Origin: Leptodesmis sichuanensis A121
Lineage (GTDB): Bacteria > Cyanobacteriota > Cyanobacteriia > Leptolyngbyales > Leptolyngbyaceae
DNA length: 64,000 nucleotides
Direction: 5' to 3'
Assembly (NCBI RefSeq): GCF_021379005.1
Contig: NZ_CP075171.1
Location: 1,178,001-1,242,000 of the forward strand
A model generated the notes under the pieces. That model saw only the letters and a program-made list of their open reading frames with translations, did no database searches and was not told the DNA's origin. Positions 3,102 to 53,880 of the stretch are shown one piece after another (positions within the stretch are counted from its first letter, which is position 1; every line of letters starts with the position of its first letter). The position numbers were made by a program, and so were the translations under genes.

Positions 3102-4778
3102 ATGAAGAACCCTATTCTACGGCGACAATTCTTCAATCCCGCCACAATCCCCGAAGACCTCAGTGCTGGGCTGGTGCTGGGTATTCAGAGCATTCCCGAT
3201 GGGCTGGCCACTGGCTTGCTCGCCCTGGTCAACCCAGTCTACGGGCTATATAGCTACATGACTGGGGTTTTCATCGGTGCTTTCTTTACCAGTTCGGTCT
3301 TCATCTCCGTCCAGGCGACCAGCGCGATGGCGTTGATTATCGCCGATGTACCCGAGGTGACGCCGGCCACCGACCCCAATATCCCTTTGTTTACCCTGGC
3401 GGTGCTGACTGGGGTGATCATGCTGGCGGCGGGACTGTTCAAGCTCGGCAGGTTGGTGCGTTTCGTTCCCAACTCAGTCATGGTTGGCTTCGTCAATGCT
3501 GTTGCGCTGCTGATCATCCTGGGGCAACTCGACAACTTGACGGGCTACCAGAGCACAGGGCCAAACCGCGTGGTCAGAACCTTCGATCTCCTGCGCCACC
3601 TCGACCAGATGCACCGACCGACCCTGGCAATCGGTGTCCTGACGATCATCCTGATTCTGACCCTGGAGCGGACCCGACTGAATGCTTTGGGCATGGTGGT
3701 TGCCATCTTCTTCGCCTCGTTGATCGTGCCCCTGGCGGGCGCGGATCAAGTGGCTCTGGCCCGATATGTGGCAGACATTCCCAACTCACTGCCGACTCCC
3801 ATGCTGCCGTCCCTTGCCCTCGTGCCTGTCCTGCTCATCCCTGCCTTGTCCCTGGCGTTCGTGGGGTTGGTGCAGGGTGCGGGCATTAGCGCCTCTGTTC
3901 CCAACCCCGACGGTAGCACTCCCGATGCGTCGGGCGACTTCGTTGGACAGGGGGTGGCAGGGATCGTCGCTGGGCTGTTTCAGGGAATGCCAGTCGCTTC
4001 CTCGATGTCAGCGACATCGCTGGTGATTGCGGCGGGTGCTCGATCGCGTCTGGCTAATATCTTTGCTGGTGTCGTGATTGCCCTCAGCATTGTGTTTTTC
4101 GGACGGCTGGTGGGAGCGATCGCCATGCCCGCTTTGGCTGGACTCCTGATTGTCATTGGCTTCCGCACATTTAAACTCAGCCAGATGACCGGCGTCTGGA
4201 AGACTGGCTTAACCCAGCAAATTGTGATGCTGCTCACGTTTATTGCCTGCTTGCTGATGCCGCTGCAATACGCGGTGCTGATCGGCGTTGGGCTGGCGGT
4301 GCTGTTGTACGTGATTCAACAGTCAAACCGGGTGCAGGTGGTTGCCTGGCGCGTGGAGCCGGGGCAGTATCCACTGGAAGTCGAGCCACCTAAAGAGGTG
4401 CCCGGTGGGCAGGTAACCATTCTGGTGCCCTATGGCAGTCTGTTCTTTGCAGCGGCACCAGTGTTCAATGAACAGCTACCGATGGTGACGGAGAACTCGC
4501 GCCACGCGGTGGTGATCCTGAGGTTGCGGGGTGAGACAGAGCTAGGTAGCACCTTCCTGGATGTGCTCAGCCGCTACAGCGAGGCTTTGCGTAGCCAGGA
4601 GAGCCTGCTGATGCTAGTAGGTGTGGCCCCGTCCGTGCGGCGGCAACTGGAGCGGACGGGGGTGCTGCGATCGCTGGGCCACGAGAATGTGTTCCTATCC
4701 GACTCGCTCATCGGTCAGGGGCTTGAAGAGGCGGTGGATGCCGCTGAGTCCTGGATCGCAGCGCGGTCAGTACCGTGA
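3102..4778 (+). CDS. SulP/SLC26 family anion transporter with STAS domain
   Basis: An integral membrane transporter of 558 residues. The N-terminal signature (LSAGLVLGIQSIPDGLATGLLALVNPVYGLYS) is the SulP core helix pair, followed by about ten more hydrophobic segments to residue 400. The C-terminal 130 residues form a cytoplasmic STAS domain (VTILVPYGSLFFAAAPVF, then VVILRLRGETELGSTFLDVL). Family members move sulfate, bicarbonate or other anions, often with Na+ or H+; cyanobacterial BicA is one relative. The sequence alone does not fix the substrate. It is monocistronic, with a repeat cluster just downstream. Its base composition is rather GC-rich. Confidence 0.9.
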   Translation: MKNPILRRQFFNPATIPEDLSAGLVLGIQSIPDGLATGLLALVNPVYGLYSYMTGVFIGAFFTSSVFISVQATSAMALIIADVPEVTPATDPNIPLFTLAVLTGVIMLAAGLFKLGRLVRFVPNSVMVGFVNAVALLIILGQLDNLTGYQSTGPNRVVRTFDLLRHLDQMHRPTLAIGVLTIILILTLERTRLNALGMVVAIFFASLIVPLAGADQVALARYVADIPNSLPTPMLPSLALVPVLLIPALSLAFVGLVQGAGISASVPNPDGSTPDASGDFVGQGVAGIVAGLFQGMPVASSMSATSLVIAAGARSRLANIFAGVVIALSIVFFGRLVGAIAMPALAGLLIVIGFRTFKLSQMTGVWKTGLTQQIVMLLTFIACLLMPLQYAVLIGVGLAVLLYVIQQSNRVQVVAWRVEPGQYPLEVEPPKEVPGGQVTILVPYGSLFFAAAPVFNEQLPMVTENSRHAVVILRLRGETELGSTFLDVLSRYSEALRSQESLLMLVGVAPSVRRQLERTGVLRSLGHENVFLSDSLIGQGLEEAVDAAESWIAARSVP

Positions 4779-4808
4779 GCGGATATTTTCCCTGCCACTC
4801 CGATCCCT

Positions 4809-4956
4809 GGTTGACTGACAAATCTCCTGAACACCCGCTGCATCACCAGGAAATCAATTTCCTGGCTCATCGCCAAAGTCATCTAAAGATGACTGGACAA
4901 GAGTTTCAGTCCATTTGAATGGACTTGCGCTGTTAGCCCAAAATTTATTTTAGGGC
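4809..4956. repeat. Dispersed repeat made of four consecutive short hairpins
   Basis: Four palindromes with different stems follow one another: CCAGGAAAT/ATTTCCTGG at 4846-4865, AGTCATC/GATGACT at 4877-4894, AGTCCATT/AATGGACT at 4908-4925, and an imperfect GCCC-AAAAT/ATTTT-A-GGGC at 4936-4956. The leading part (from CTGGTTGACTGACAAATC) recurs at 47523-47617. The rest of the gene-free stretch 4957-5133 shows no gene. The arrangement suggests a structured RNA or a mobile non-autonomous repeat. Confidence 0.8.
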
Positions 4957-5133
4957 GGGTAGACAACAGAGACTTGAGCCTTTCGGAACTTTTGTCAGTC
5001 AATCAGATCCGATCCTCGGTGAATCCCTCCAATATGGCTGCACCGCTGCGGAAGCATGGCTGGCGACGCTCACATGAAATACCCCCTTTAGAGAGTTACT
5101 AAAGAGGGGCACCAGGGAACGATCGACTAGCGA

Positions 5134-46053: not shown

Positions 46054-47510
46054 TCAATAGTCCGGACTGAATTAGAAGGCTATGATGCCGTAGGAACGGA
46101 GGGTTTCATAGTTGGGATGGGATTTAATCAAAGTTGGGTTCAAGTCTAACATTGAAATAAATCGCTCCAGTAAATGGTCGTTGAAGGCAACGCGCTTGTA
46201 ACTTGCCATTGAAAAGGTAGATAAAGCGGGCCTTGGATTGTCTTGGCTAGAGCGCAGTTGGTCTTCGTATTTGGCCAGATTCAGAGCGCTCAAAGACGCA
46301 TTGAAGTGGAAGTCGAGGGTTTGAGACTGGCGAGTTTGAGCGTCACACAGCCCAGTAAATTGTTTTGCGTCCCTAAAAATAAATTCAATTTGAAACCTGG
46401 CTTTGTAATAGTCGAGGATGTGCTCGGCATCGAGGTCAACGTCAGTCGAGAACAGCAGTGCATAGCCAGTTTTGCCTGGTTTACGAGTATCGACCACAGC
46501 GGCGATGCGAATTTGACGTTTGAGTGAGACATGCCAAACAATGCTGGTGTAAAGGTCTAGACCCGGTTCGAGTTGAGTGACATGAGACAACCGACTTAAA
46601 TCCCGCAAATCAACTTTGCCATCGTACTTGCGCTTGGCCCCACGCGGCTTTTGCACTCCGGTATACAGGTAACGCATATCGGCATCAGTGCGAAGTTTGC
46701 TAATCACTTGGAGATTCAAGCCAACGACCCCGTCCACAAACTTCTTCTTGCTATAGAATCCATCGACGGCCCAATACTTGAGTCCAGCAGGTAAATAAGC
46801 ATAGCTGTCCTGGAGGTGCTTGAGGTAATAATCCATCCGAGTCGGTTCGGCGGTCGCATTGTTCACTTCTGCCTCAGCCATCGGCTTGATTGGCAACTGC
46901 TCAAGCATCTGCTGGGTCTGCTCAATCATGGCCCACGTAATCCACTGGTGCTGGTTTTGCACTTTTGCCTTGCGCTTTGCCAGAGTTGCCGGAGTTTGTT
47001 GCACCGACAAACTGTAGCCTTGATGGGCATCAACATCGATGATCGCAATCACCGAAATCTCTAAGCCCTTTTGAGTCCGGTTCTCACTGCCGTTGTAAAA
47101 CCAATCCAACCCGTAGGTCGCTTTGCCACTTTTGCGGATAAATGAGCAGTCCATCGCCCCAATGTAAGTAGTCCCCTGCCCTATCGTCATCTCAATCAAC
47201 TTGGCATTCAAGCCCATGAAGCAAAACGCTTGGCGATACTGGCGGCGGTAGGTTCTCTCGCTCAACTTGCTGTAACGACTCAGGTTGCTGAAGTTGACTT
47301 TGCCACACACCAGCAAAATCGTCGGAAATAGGGTCAAAAGAAACCTTTGTTGCGGTTTGTCAAAGTCCCCATTTTGGCAAATAGGGCTTGTAGAATGGTC
47401 TTCATAGCTACCTCTGGGGTGTTTGTTTCAATATCTGCACCTTACAAATGGAGGTAGCTTTTTGTCTAGCAGCTTCGGTTTTTCTCTCTAAAAACTGTCC
47501 GAACTATTGA
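46054..47510 (-). mobile_element. IS4-family insertion sequence, 1457 bp
   Basis: The ends are inverted repeats: TCAATAGTCCGGAC at 46054-46067, and TCAATAGTTCGGAC read inward on the minus strand from 47510. Both flanks carry AATA (46050-46053 and 47511-47514), a plausible 4-bp target duplication. It contains one transposase gene and sits between the macroglobulin gene and a dispersed repeat. Confidence 0.85.
46072..47405 (-). pseudogene. IS4-type transposase with N-terminal frameshift
   Basis: A DDE transposase of 421 residues in the main frame. The first Asp block is GAMDCSFIRKSGK, and the YREK signature of the IS4 family is present with exact spacing: Y-2-R-3-E-6-K in YYKARFQIEFIFRDAK. The main frame opens only with a TTG at 47337. 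Upstream, an ATG at 47405 begins MKTILQALFAKMGTLTN in another frame, and a one-base shift at about 47353 would join it to QQRFLLTLFPTI. The natural N-terminus is therefore broken by a single-base loss, or read by frameshifting. The element may be inactive. Confidence 0.8.
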
Positions 47511-48249: not shown

Positions 48250-48399
48250 TCATACTTCGCGTAACCGATGCCTGGACTGCACCAACTTCACTCGATACGG
48301 ATCGGCCTCTTTTCGCCATATCACCCGGTGCCCCTTCAACTCCGCACAGTGCTCCTCCAGGCACTTCTGCCAACCCAGACGATCGCGCACACTAAGCTA
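48250..48399 (-). pseudogene. C-terminal remnant of a second phosphorothioation-associated methyltransferase
   Basis: Forty-eight codons between two stops read GWQKCLEEHCAELKGHRVIW, then RKEADPYRVKLVQSR. The end of the intact gene at 50353-52464 reads GWQKCLEEHCAEVKGHRVVW, then RKDADPYQVKLVKSR. DNA similarity is high but not identical, so it is an old paralog and not a recent copy. It lies in the same orientation on the other side of the disrupted ParDE module. Confidence 0.85.
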
Positions 48400-48486
48400 A
48401 ACTTACAGGTATTCATCTTCTTCCCGCAGGTACGACCATGAGCCTACCTCTACCACCAGATTTACAGCAGTTTGCCGATCGCCAGA

Positions 48487-49884
48487 GAGCTATGTTTAAT
48501 TCTGGTGTACGGCAAGAATGAAAAAACGGCGTACCCTGCTGGATAGAAACAAACACCAGCAAACAGGAATACACCGATGACTCAAGATAAACTGGTTTCA
48601 TTCAAAACACCAGATGAGCCTGGAACATTTAGCGATGCGCTGACTGAACTGGTTCGTAACGGTGCGCGTCAAATCATTGCCCAAGCAGTTGAAGTCGAGT
48701 TGCAGGAGTTTTTAGCCCAATACCAGAGCCTCAAAGATGAGCAAGGACGACAGGCGGTCGTGCGCAATGGCTACTTGCCTGAACGAAGCATTGTGACTGG
48801 GGTTGGAGCGGTTGAAATTCAAGTTCCGAAAGTGCGAGACCGAAGCGGACAGGGGATTAAGTTTAATTCGCTGTTGTTGCCGCCGTATTTGAAGCGCGCT
48901 CAAAGTGTTGAGGAGGTGTTGCCCTGGTTGTACCTCAAAGGAGTCTCGACTGGGGATTTTTCAGAAGCTTTGGCATCGTTGCTGGGCACCCAGGCAGACG
49001 GGTTATCTGCGAGTACCATCAGCCGCCTCAAAGCGAAGTGGACTCAGGAGCACCAGCAGTGGCAACAGCGAACGCTCAGTGGCAAGCGGTATGTGTATGT
49101 TTGGGCAGATGGGATTTACTTCAACATCCGCAACGAAGATGACCGACAATGTATTTTAGTCCTGATCGGAGTGACGGATACGGGCAGCAAGGAATTGCTC
49201 GGACTCGAAGCTGGATTTCGCGAGTCCGAGTTGAGTTGGAAACCGTTGTTGTTACGCTTACAAGACCAGGGACTCAAGCAAGCACCAGAGTTGGCGATTG
49301 GAGATGGTGCATTGGGATTTTGGAAAGCCCTCGCGCAGGTATTTCCGTCCACCCGCATCCAACGTTGTTGGGTGCATAAAACGGCGAATGTCCTCAACCA
49401 CTTACCTAAAAGCCAGCAACCCCACGCCAAGTCGGCTTTACATCAAATCTACCTGGCAGCCACCAAAGATGAGGCAGAAAAGGCTTTTGAGCGATTCATC
49501 AAAACCTACGCAGCCAAGTATCCTAAAGCCACGGAGTGTTTAGCCAAAGACCGATCCGCATTGTTGGCATTCTATGATTTCCCGGCTGAGCATTGGGTGC
49601 ATCTGCGCACCACCAATCCAATTGAATCCACTTTTGCCACGGTGCGCTTGAGAACCGATAAAACGCGAGGCTGTGTCTCCCAGGACAGCATTCTGTCGTT
49701 GGTCTTCAAGCTTGTCCAGAGCGCTCAGAAGCGATGGTTACGGATTCGAGGCTTCAAACGATTAGGGGAGGTGATTGAAGGAGTCAAATTCAAGGATGGA
49801 ATTCGCGTTGATTTACATCCCGATTCAGGAGTCAGTCAGGACGCTGCTTGATTCTTCTTCATACACCACATTTGACAATAACTC
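48487..49884 (+). mobile_element. IS256-family insertion sequence, 1398 bp
   Basis: The imperfect inverted ends are GAGCTATGTTTAATTCTGG and, from the right, GAGTTATTGTCAAATGTGG, both followed by TGTA. An exact 8-bp duplication TCGCCAGA flanks the element (48479-48486 and 49885-49892), as expected for this family. One transposase gene is present. Confidence 0.93.
48577..49851 (+). CDS. IS256-family transposase
   Basis: This mutator-type DDE transposase has 424 residues and looks intact: AVVRNGYLPERSIVTGVGAVEI, the first Asp in YVYVWADGIYFNIR, ELAIGDGALGFWKALAQVFP (second Asp), the conserved RIQRCWVHKTANVLNHLPKS and the late Glu region TTNPIESTFATVRLRT. A fragment of a related transposase lies at 7641-7782. 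It is the probable agent of the antitoxin disruption. Confidence 0.95.
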   Translation: MTQDKLVSFKTPDEPGTFSDALTELVRNGARQIIAQAVEVELQEFLAQYQSLKDEQGRQAVVRNGYLPERSIVTGVGAVEIQVPKVRDRSGQGIKFNSLLLPPYLKRAQSVEEVLPWLYLKGVSTGDFSEALASLLGTQADGLSASTISRLKAKWTQEHQQWQQRTLSGKRYVYVWADGIYFNIRNEDDRQCILVLIGVTDTGSKELLGLEAGFRESELSWKPLLLRLQDQGLKQAPELAIGDGALGFWKALAQVFPSTRIQRCWVHKTANVLNHLPKSQQPHAKSALHQIYLAATKDEAEKAFERFIKTYAAKYPKATECLAKDRSALLAFYDFPAEHWVHLRTTNPIESTFATVRLRTDKTRGCVSQDSILSLVFKLVQSAQKRWLRIRGFKRLGEVIEGVKFKDGIRVDLHPDSGVSQDAA

Positions 49885-50103
49885 TCGCCAGATTGCCAGT
49901 GGCAAGTATACTTCACTGGATGAGATGATGCTGGCGGGGTTGCGGATCCTGGCAGAGCAGGAACAGATTTATCAGGGACGCTTTGAAGAATTGCGGCGTG
50001 AGTTGTTGTTGGGGATGTTAGAAGCCGAACAAGGGGAACTTCTGGATGCGGCAAGCGAAATTGAAGCGATTCGCCAGCGGTTACGTCAACGGCATTCTGG
50101 AGC

Positions 50104-50408
50104 ATGAGCCGGGTCTGTCGGATTACGCCTCGCGCCAGTCGAGATATTGAAGCGATCGCAGACTATCTGGCTACCCAAGGCGATTTGACTCATGCCGAAC
50201 AGTTCCTAAAGGGCATTGATTCAACCCTTCAACGGATTCTCAATTTCCTCAAATTGGACGCAAACGAGATGAACTCTATCCTGGCTCACGTAGTCTGTCC
50301 TACAAACAATTCCTCATCTTCTACCGCCTGCTCAACGATGATATTGAAGTTCTCAGAGTGATGAGTGGCTATCAAGATTTGACGGCTTTGTTTGATGATT
50401 CTCCTTAA
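50104..50408 (+). pseudogene. ParE-like toxin with frameshift
   Basis: The ATG overlaps the antitoxin stop (ATGA). The reading begins VCRITPRASRDIEAIADYLA and LKGIDSTLQRILNF. Near 50249 one C appears to be missing; in the next frame the text continues PQIGRKRDELYPGSRSLSYK, then QFLIFYRLLNDDIEVLRVM to the TAA at 50406-50408. That is the conserved second half of ParE/RelE-type toxins (DNA gyrase poison or RNase class). Unshifted, the product ends at 50361 in unrelated sequence, so the toxin should be dead. Confidence 0.88.
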
Positions 50409-52464
50409 GTGCAATACAACTAATCCGCTGCTGTCGTCTAGATTTGACTAACTTCACCTGATACGGATCAGCGTCCTTGCGCCACACTACGCGATGTCCC
50501 TTGACCTCGGCACAATGTTCCTCCAGGCATTTTTGCCACCCCTGGCGATCGTAAATGGCTCCCAAATCATCTAGTAAGCCCCAATCGGTTTCCTGGCGGG
50601 TCAATTTGGCGAACTTTTCGTAGAGGGGATAGTCGGCTGTCACCATCAAATCCTTCTGGTGCAGGAGGGGGGGGTTATCGTCTGGGTCATAATCCCGATA
50701 GTGGACGTGCAGGTCTCGCAGGTCGATTTGCATACTGGTGTGGAGCGCCGGGTGGGGGTCTGTATCGAAGTCGGGATAGAACAGGTAGGAAATCCTGGGT
50801 TGACGGAAGTGGAACTTGACGACATTGGCTTCCTGAGGACGACCGATCGTGCGAGAAGCGCAACCTTCGTAGAGCCGCAGCAGCGGGTCGAGTACCTCGA
50901 TCGCCGATATATGTACCCACAGGGAATTGGGTCGCTTCTGCCCGATGGCACTTTGCTTGCAGCGTTCTGCAATCACGTTCAAATTACCCAGGCTCATCAA
51001 CATCAGGTCTGCCGCTGCGCAGGCTTGCTGATAGCTCCCGAACAGGCTCTTGATGTCATTCTGCACTACTGGGGTGAGATCCCGTAGCTTAGGACGGCGA
51101 CCAAAGTGGCTTAACGCCAGGTAAACCAACAGGTCATGACGACGGCGATCGCTGATGGCATCCCACTCCTGCGGGTTCGTGGCTTGCAGCACGATCTGGA
51201 AGGCCCGCCGCAGCGTGCCAAATTCAGTATTAAGGACTGCTGCTTCAGGCAGTTCTTCTAAGGTTGGCAGTCGTCCCCGTTCGGTAAAGAAGGTCATCAA
51301 CGGAGTGAGCAGTTCCTTGTAATCCTCAAACCGCTTGTTCGCCAGTTGAACTTTGGGAACGCTGACCCGCGATCGAAATCGGGAGGCCCGAAAAGTCTGA
51401 GCCTGGGCCTCGTCTCGAAACACAAAATAGATCCCTAACCCGGCTGGAACGGAATCGACTCCCAGCACCTGGTCAATGTAAAGCTTCAGTTCTTCCTGGT
51501 CATAGTACTTCTGAAAGGTGTTGCGGCTGGTAATCACCCCATCCCCATAGGCAATCTGGCTATTTCCCTGGGCGATCAGTACCTGAGCGGCAACGATCAG
51601 CATCTGCCGGGTTAACTCCCAGGCTTTGATTAATGCTTGCCGCCGCTCGGCCTGCGATTCAATCACATTGATGACATAGCCGAGGTTAACGACATCCGCC
51701 GCAACCAGAGATGCATCCGGGCGGTAGTAGGGATCCCAGCCGGAACTCTCGCAACCGAGCTTAGCAACCCGATCGATATCGCTTCCCTGCCCGCAGCCGT
51801 AGTCGAAGAACGTCATCCCCTGGTGCAGCAGCCCCGCTTCTAATGCCAGACGCACGGGTTTAGAGAAATCGTTGCGACTGATAGCAGCCTTGTGGCGATC
51901 GATCTTGACCTGAGTAGACGGGGCATTGAGGAGGGAGCGATGCACCAGCGTATGCCCCTGAAACGTTACTTTGAATTGAGCTAAGCGTTCTTCCCAAGCC
52001 AAGCGTGTTCCGATCGCCCGTGGATGATCCAATAACCCCAAAGCTTCTTCCTGACGAGTCAGGGCAGCGAACTGCTGATAGTGAGGATAGTCCGGCGTAA
52101 CAAAGGTTTCTTTGCGATGGAGAATAAAAGGGTTTTCGGAATCGCTGTAATCTCGAAAATTCACCTCATGACTTTGCAGGTTCACCTGAATGCTGACTTG
52201 AAGCGCAGGGTGCGGATCGCTATCAAACTCTGGATATAGCAGATAAGAGATGCTCGGCTGCTTCAGCTTGAATTTAACGAGCGTGATCCCTTCTGGGTGG
52301 GCAGCCATCTCCCTGGCTGCGCACTCGTACCCCTGGAGCAGCGGATCTAGCGATTCTAAGGCTGAGACATGGACATATAAGGCATCCGGCAGAAGCTTAC
52401 CCACCTTGCTGCGCTGGCAGGTAACGGCGATCGCATCCCAATCACTGCTGCAACTCGAAATCAT
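50353..52464 (-). CDS. DNA phosphorothioation-associated putative methyltransferase, with duplicated flanking domain
   Basis: I chose the ATG at 52464, which overlaps the stop of the upstream nuclease gene (ATGA), giving 703 residues. The centre (about 200-360) is a SAM-dependent methyltransferase-like domain with motif I FDYGCGQGSD at 220-229, then GYVINVIESQAERRQALIKA and YGDGVITSRNTFQKYY. This is the family found beside Dnd/Ssp phosphorothioation genes (TIGR04096 type). A domain of about 165 residues occurs twice: 13-177 and 497-663 (LYPEFDSDPHPALQVSIQVN and FYPDFDTDPHPALHTSMQID). As I remember it, the usual family order is methyltransferase then one C-terminal copy; the N-terminal copy looks like a fusion. 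Methyl target unknown. Confidence 0.85.
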   Translation of the reverse strand: MISSCSSDWDAIAVTCQRSKVGKLLPDALYVHVSALESLDPLLQGYECAAREMAAHPEGITLVKFKLKQPSISYLLYPEFDSDPHPALQVSIQVNLQSHEVNFRDYSDSENPFILHRKETFVTPDYPHYQQFAALTRQEEALGLLDHPRAIGTRLAWEERLAQFKVTFQGHTLVHRSLLNAPSTQVKIDRHKAAISRNDFSKPVRLALEAGLLHQGMTFFDYGCGQGSDIDRVAKLGCESSGWDPYYRPDASLVAADVVNLGYVINVIESQAERRQALIKAWELTRQMLIVAAQVLIAQGNSQIAYGDGVITSRNTFQKYYDQEELKLYIDQVLGVDSVPAGLGIYFVFRDEAQAQTFRASRFRSRVSVPKVQLANKRFEDYKELLTPLMTFFTERGRLPTLEELPEAAVLNTEFGTLRRAFQIVLQATNPQEWDAISDRRRHDLLVYLALSHFGRRPKLRDLTPVVQNDIKSLFGSYQQACAAADLMLMSLGNLNVIAERCKQSAIGQKRPNSLWVHISAIEVLDPLLRLYEGCASRTIGRPQEANVVKFHFRQPRISYLFYPDFDTDPHPALHTSMQIDLRDLHVHYRDYDPDDNPPLLHQKDLMVTADYPLYEKFAKLTRQETDWGLLDDLGAIYDRQGWQKCLEEHCAEVKGHRVVWRKDADPYQVKLVKSRRQQRISCIALKENHQTKPSNLDSHSSL

Positions 52465-53093
52465 GGTAGAAGGGTCGCGCCAATCCGCTTCAGAATACTC
52501 AGCACAGCGTAAAGCTCTTGCCCAGGATTGTCCATAGAAAATCGGCGAGACAGGGCATATTGAGGAGGTTGCCCTGACATCAACTGAATAAACAGAAACT
52601 CGCATCCATTGGTAGAAAGCCCAAACAAAGGATAATCGCATGTAGGGCAACCCATCATGTAGGCTAATGCTTGAGGCAACGCTTCCATCACATCAAACCG
52701 GGTGCGTTTGGATTCGATCACCAAAATCCAGAGTTTGTTTTTTACGACCAGAACATCAATCCTGCCTTTGACCAGGGTATGTTCATCAGTTTCTGCCTGA
52801 ATGGGAATTGAAATGTCAAACTCAATGTCTACGTCAAATGGAGGCTGATAGAACCCGGCTAAATCGAGCAGAGGCGAAACCACCACCATATTGACCAGTC
52901 CTTCTGCCAGCGATCGCTCAGACAGGTAGGCATAGTTGGTTTGCACCCGGTCTAAGATTTGGCGCTCTAAATCGGATGGTTCAGGAAAGGGGGGCTGCCA
53001 TTCAGCGACCGTCGTACCGTTGACCTGGACTAAGCCAAACTGCTGTTTCACCTGGCGTAGGGTGAGATCGCTGGCAGAAATTGCGGGTGTCAT
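52461..53093 (-). CDS. PD-(D/E)XK nuclease-like protein coupled to the methyltransferase
   Basis: This protein has 210 residues. RIDVLVVKNKLWILVIESKR supplies the D...E-x-K centre of restriction-like nucleases (type I R-subunit N-terminal type), followed by a helix LPQALAYMMG often seen in that fold. Its stop overlaps the methyltransferase start by 4 bp (ATGA), implying translational coupling and joint function. It could be a nuclease acting on DNA unless modified, or part of modification itself; which cannot be told from sequence. Confidence 0.78.
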   Translation of the reverse strand: MTPAISASDLTLRQVKQQFGLVQVNGTTVAEWQPPFPEPSDLERQILDRVQTNYAYLSERSLAEGLVNMVVVSPLLDLAGFYQPPFDVDIEFDISIPIQAETDEHTLVKGRIDVLVVKNKLWILVIESKRTRFDVMEALPQALAYMMGCPTCDYPLFGLSTNGCEFLFIQLMSGQPPQYALSRRFSMDNPGQELYAVLSILKRIGATLLP

Positions 53094-53263: not shown

Positions 53264-53647
53264 CTACATAACATTAACTGAGTAGGCACGAACTGCTGTA
53301 TCCACTGTCGCAATTGTCAAACCATTTTGTAAAGCTTGACAAATAAGCATCCTGTCAAACGGATCACGATGTAATGGTGGTAATTTAGCCAATTGAATCA
53401 CGCTACTTTCATCAAGAGGAAGACTGGCAATTTGATGAAGATCGCGCTGTTTGGGTAAATATGTTTTGGGATGCTCCGGCAGAGGTAGTTTACCCAACTG
53501 GTACTTGACAATTGCTTCCCAGACTGAAACTGCGCTCAGATAGACCTCATTGTCTGGATCACGAATTGCATCCCGAACATCTGTTGACAACTGGGTATCG
53601 CCACTGATGAACCATAAAAAGATGTGCGTATCTAGCAGAATCCTCAT
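53264..53647 (-). CDS. VapC-type PIN-domain toxin
   Basis: This protein has 127 residues. The PIN RNase acidic residues are in place: LLDTHIFLWF (Asp6), VWEAIVK (Glu), HRDPFDRMLI (Asp) and TIATVDTAV (Asp). It should cleave RNA when free of antitoxin. It belongs to the PIN subgroup usually paired with Phd/YefM antitoxins; the antitoxin gene lies just upstream with a 4-bp overlap. It appears intact. Confidence 0.93.
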   Translation of the reverse strand: MRILLDTHIFLWFISGDTQLSTDVRDAIRDPDNEVYLSAVSVWEAIVKYQLGKLPLPEHPKTYLPKQRDLHQIASLPLDESSVIQLAKLPPLHRDPFDRMLICQALQNGLTIATVDTAVRAYSVNVM

Positions 53648-53880
53648 TTGCCCTCGAATGCACTGAGAAGATCTTCTGGCAAAGGAGCATCAAAATCATC
53701 TGGAACGGTAAACTCGCCTGCACACAAACCAAATGGTCGCAATTGTTTACTACTGGCAATAGGTCTAAGTTCAGCGATCGGTTTATTAGATCGGATAATT
53801 ACCAGGACCTCACCTGCCTCAACACGCTGAAGATACTTTAATGGGTCACGCTGGATTTCATCAACAGTCACATTCGACAT
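53644..53880 (-). CDS. Phd/YefM-type antitoxin
   Basis: This protein has 78 residues. The N-terminal Phd fold is seen in EIQRDPLKYLQRVEAGEVLVI then KPIAELRPI, which would bind its own operator. The C-terminal part (FTVPDDFDAPLPEDLLSAFEG) is the toxin-neutralising tail seen in partners of this PIN group. First gene of the pair; ATGA overlap with the toxin. Confidence 0.92.
   Translation of the reverse strand: MSNVTVDEIQRDPLKYLQRVEAGEVLVIIRSNKPIAELRPIASSKQLRPFGLCAGEFTVPDDFDAPLPEDLLSAFEGK

Follow-up and report, generated by a model that had tools for sequence, protein, structure and literature searches.

An IS256-family insertion splits the antitoxin gene

The window analyzed here is a stretch of 64,000 nucleotides (positions 1178001–1242000) from a cyanobacterial genome of 5.35 Mb, which is represented by a single contig and is 99.92% complete. 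It contains a toxin-antitoxin locus in which an IS256-family element lies in codon 17 of the antitoxin gene parD and the downstream toxin gene parE carries a frameshift. Coordinates below are those of the window, and features are on the plus strand unless stated otherwise.

The insertion sequence (48487–49884, 1398 bp) has imperfect terminal inverted repeats, GAGCTATGTTTAATTCTGGTGTA and GAGTTATTGTCAAATGTGGTGTA, and encodes a Mutator-type transposase of 424 aa (48577–49851), which scores 336.4 bits with the NCBIfam model for IS256 (NF033543, curated cut-off 150) and 257 bits with Pfam Transposase_mut. It is bordered by two perfectly matching copies of the 8-bp target sequence TCGCCAGA, the left at 48479–48486 and the right at 49885–49892; agreement of all eight bases between two fixed ends would arise by chance with a probability of about 1.5e-5. 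Elsewhere in the genome there are five more full copies, of which four are identical and the fifth differs by one mismatch; all six full copies have the terminal inverted repeats and target duplications of 8 or 9 bp that are typical of the family. In addition, the genome contains a truncated copy (100% identity) and a distantly related element (73%). The near identity of the copies across the genome shows that the element has moved recently. Both the element and its perfect duplication had been proposed in a first-pass annotation made from the nucleotide sequence, and they are upheld by the family model, the inverted repeats and the genomic copies. A second transposase gene (46072–47337) is related to the IS701 and IS4 families, with scores below their cut-offs.

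The element divides parD into a 5’ piece (48438–48486), comprising codons 1–16 and the first base of codon 17, and a 3’ piece (49892–50107), comprising codons 17–87 and the stop codon. Codons 1–16 occupy 48438–48485 and codon 17 straddles the target site; codons 18–87 lie at 49895–50104, followed by the stop codon at 50105–50107. The peptide encoded by the 5’ piece, MSLPLPPDLQQFADRQ, is identical to the N-terminus of ParD at the homologous locus L010, while the 3’ piece, which is expected to include the toxin-binding region, shares 91% identity with ParD of L010 and 88% with ParD of L069/L011, a metagenome-assembled genome of Tildeniella nuda. In both L010 and L069 ParD is uninterrupted and has 87 aa, exactly the length obtained when the element and one copy of the duplication are removed from the window, as had been predicted. 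The pieces themselves, being fragments, fall below the cut-offs of the family models; the assignment to ParD comes from the intact orthologues (88–91% identity), which pass Pfam PF03693 (24.8 and 26.1, cut-off 21), are just under the cut-off of TIGR02606 (43.7 and 44.9, cut-off 46.2) and weakly match the solved ParD chain 3kxe_C. The C-terminal half of ParD binds the toxin. Its N-terminal half is a DNA-binding ribbon-helix-helix domain (PMC4906023).

The toxin gene is frameshifted

The stop codon of parD overlaps the start of parE (50104–50408) in an ATGA motif at 50104, so that the antitoxin gene is upstream of the toxin gene and overlaps it, as in ParDE modules. Compared with the intact ParE of L069 (101 aa), residues 1–48 are encoded in one frame (50104–50247) and residues 46–101 in another (50238–50405). 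This split match indicates a net one-base shift at 50238–50249, in agreement with the frameshift that had been placed near 50249 in the first-pass annotation. Each half passes Pfam PF05016 (ParE_toxin, cut-off 23) separately, the N-terminal piece with 29.2 and the C-terminal piece with 31.1, and the intact orthologue scores 73.6 and matches solved ParE-like toxins (7ycs, 1.7e-11; 3kxe, 1.2e-4). Alignment with homologues thus sustains the reading of the repaired genes as ParD and ParE.

The predicted product of the frameshifted gene has approximately 46 native residues followed by foreign sequence, 85 aa in total. It lacks the native toxin's second half and is likely inactive, since deletion of only the last 10 residues abolishes the toxicity of ParE2 from Mycobacterium tuberculosis (PMC4906023). 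A sequencing error masking an intact toxin would also produce a single indel in a frame that is otherwise well conserved and has no further stops, but the shift is outside any long homopolymer, the assembly is a nearly complete single contig, and related loci carry different parE lesions, which makes such an error improbable. Inheritance of the frameshift from an ancestor shared with L010 and L070 was considered and rejected, as their lesions are located elsewhere or are of another kind.

An empty site and flanking methyltransferase gene ends

As judged by the parDE locus, close relatives of the window occur among the cyanobacteria, for example in Tildeniella, Stenomitos, Leptolyngbya and Nodosilinea. 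The T. nuda genome, from another genus of the same family, provides the empty site that had been suggested as a check: its parD (87 aa) and parE (101 aa) are uninterrupted and lie beside the same dnd-related methyltransferase gene, and the right flank of the module is 77% identical to it over 1.7 kb. It is an independent empty site.

In the window, the methyltransferase gene spans 50353–52650 (TIGR04096, 894 bits). A part of its 3’ end (50438–50551, minus strand), found in the same context in L069, is 76% identical to a remnant upstream of parD (48272–48385, minus strand), so that direct repeats of methyltransferase gene ends bracket the module; the left remnant is still in frame, with 30 of 37 residues identical. 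The remnant is also present upstream of parD in L010, L030 and L070, and partly in L069 and L071. Given its presence in the former three loci, the flanked arrangement is older than either lesion. The module may have been moved by recombination at the methyltransferase gene ends. In L051 and L055 only the tail of parE remains beside the methyltransferase gene, as would be expected after loss of the module. At 50353–50408 the methyltransferase frame overlaps the 3’ end of parE in antisense.

Decay among homologous loci

Approximately 20 loci with ParD about 64% or more identical to that of L069 were treated as close homologues; L052 was left out of the counts, as the locus stops at a contig edge. 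Both genes are open in about 11 of these loci. In five, parD is open and only parE is affected: by a frameshift in L010, a nonsense mutation in L070, a truncation in L081 and absence of the gene in L050 and L077. Both genes are damaged in another five: the window, L030, L056, L078 and L080. The reverse situation, a broken parD with an open parE, was found in none of the approximately 20 loci, and a search of 390 genomes of the class with ParE as the query yielded no close full-length ParE without ParD. The lesions are unlike one another, which indicates separate events.

All five single-gene breakages therefore affect the toxin; with equal odds for each gene to break first, the probability of this outcome would be 0.03, a rough figure, as the counts are small, come from related genomes and were partly collected using ParD as the query. 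The repeated breakage of the toxin gene beside an open parD, with the reverse absent, supports a general tendency among close homologues for the toxin to be lost first. The relatives thus provide a small natural series, from intact modules through loci with a broken toxin gene to loci with both genes broken, which can be used to ask whether the toxin always dies first.

Two loci have unusual structures. In L077 (Nodosilinea nodulosa PCC 7104, 4001–5074), where parE is gone, parD continues in frame into a protein that we take, from its sequence, to be MazG-like (357 aa in total). L084 (Pseudanabaena sp. lw0831, 4001–5055) has two tandem copies of parD, and the parE downstream of them is frameshifted or interrupted.

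Order of the two lesions

The first-pass annotation had reasoned that loss of the antitoxin alone should be toxic, that the toxin frameshift therefore probably came first or was selected at once, and that the order could be inferred from one locus. The last of these claims does not hold. Window-specific replacement/silent changes number 2/3 in parD and 6/10 in parE (Fisher p 0.66 and 0.39, respectively, versus other taxa), and ordering the lesions by such accumulated substitutions gave no signal separating the two genes. Pairwise dN/dS ratios of the window are about 0.05–0.16, and parD and parE both still look constrained, which suggests that both lesions are recent. The order of the breaks is unreadable from the locus alone.

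The premise that loss of parD is necessarily toxic is also weak. Antitoxin loss need not be toxic, because the element separates parE from the sequence that precedes parD, on which account it may be polar on parE, and because the C-terminal part of ParD stays in an open frame. This predicted hybrid frame (49775–50107, 110 codons from a TTG) fuses the right end of the element in frame to ParD residues 17–87; further starts are an ATG at 49796, preceded by AAGGAG, and ParD-internal ATGs at 49925 and 49928. A second intact parDE-like pair elsewhere in the genome (C1:566930–567444; ParD 42% and ParE 54% identical) is a possible further buffer.

The claim that the toxin broke first thus loses its original argument and draws instead on the tendency among homologues. 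By that comparison the parE lesion probably preceded the insertion at the window locus as well: parE would have been frameshifted first, with loss of the toxin, and the IS256-family element would then have entered codon 17 of parD, where, coming after the toxin lesion, its insertion would have been neutral. We consider the opposite order unlikely. There the split of parD would have been tolerated through polarity on parE or through another, protective ParD, and parE would have decayed later by drift; the position of the element between the start of parD and parE and the presence of the second pair fit this course, but cross-protection at 42% ParD identity is conjecture, and the homologues offer toxin-only breakage and not one case of antitoxin-only breakage. 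Far less probable still is that the insertion created a working chimeric antitoxin, with the hybrid frame expressed from the element and able to neutralize ParE. Such a chimera would have a DNA-binding domain truncated at its N-terminus but would keep the toxin-binding part, and entry of the element need not then have freed the toxin. The open frame, the well-placed ATG at 49796 and the retained C-terminal part of ParD agree with this possibility; against it, the frame may be open by chance, a scan for element-driven transcription found promoter-like sites no more often than expected by chance, and ParE is itself frameshifted, so that no toxin at this locus needs neutralizing.

Taken as a whole, we assign a probability of roughly 0.85 to the reading of the locus as a type II toxin-antitoxin module of the ParDE type that is dead or about to become so, with the toxin lesion presumably first.

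Comparison with known systems

In ParDE modules the toxin acts as an inhibitor of DNA gyrase and is neutralized by the antitoxin. The locus resembles ParDE type II modules (PF03693/PF05016; solved relatives 3kxe, 8c24, 7r5a and 5ceg) in gene order, in the ATGA overlap, in the sizes of 87 and 101 codons in the intact orthologue and in the sequence homology of both proteins, and differs from them in that both genes are broken. Chromosomal addiction systems in decay have been described in Escherichia coli, where ccdO157 and five copies of hok-sok are losing function (PMC2654758); the window differs in being a cyanobacterial ParDE locus with an insertion sequence and a frameshift in the two partners of one module. 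Among cyanobacteria, Microcystis aeruginosa PCC 7806 likewise has a ParDE-like pair bordered by direct repeats (PMC7935541), but these 152-bp repeats are identical, whereas those of the window are methyltransferase gene ends with 76% identity. Both the kind of insertion sequence and the kind of decay are already known, and the locus, a case of ordinary toxin-antitoxin decay, changes nothing in this knowledge; it is a clear and recent example of the process. A few kb downstream, at 53264–53880, the window contains a second antitoxin-toxin-like pair, apparently intact, with an antitoxin of the Phd/VapB type according to NCBIfam and a partner that, from its sequence, is presumably PIN-like.
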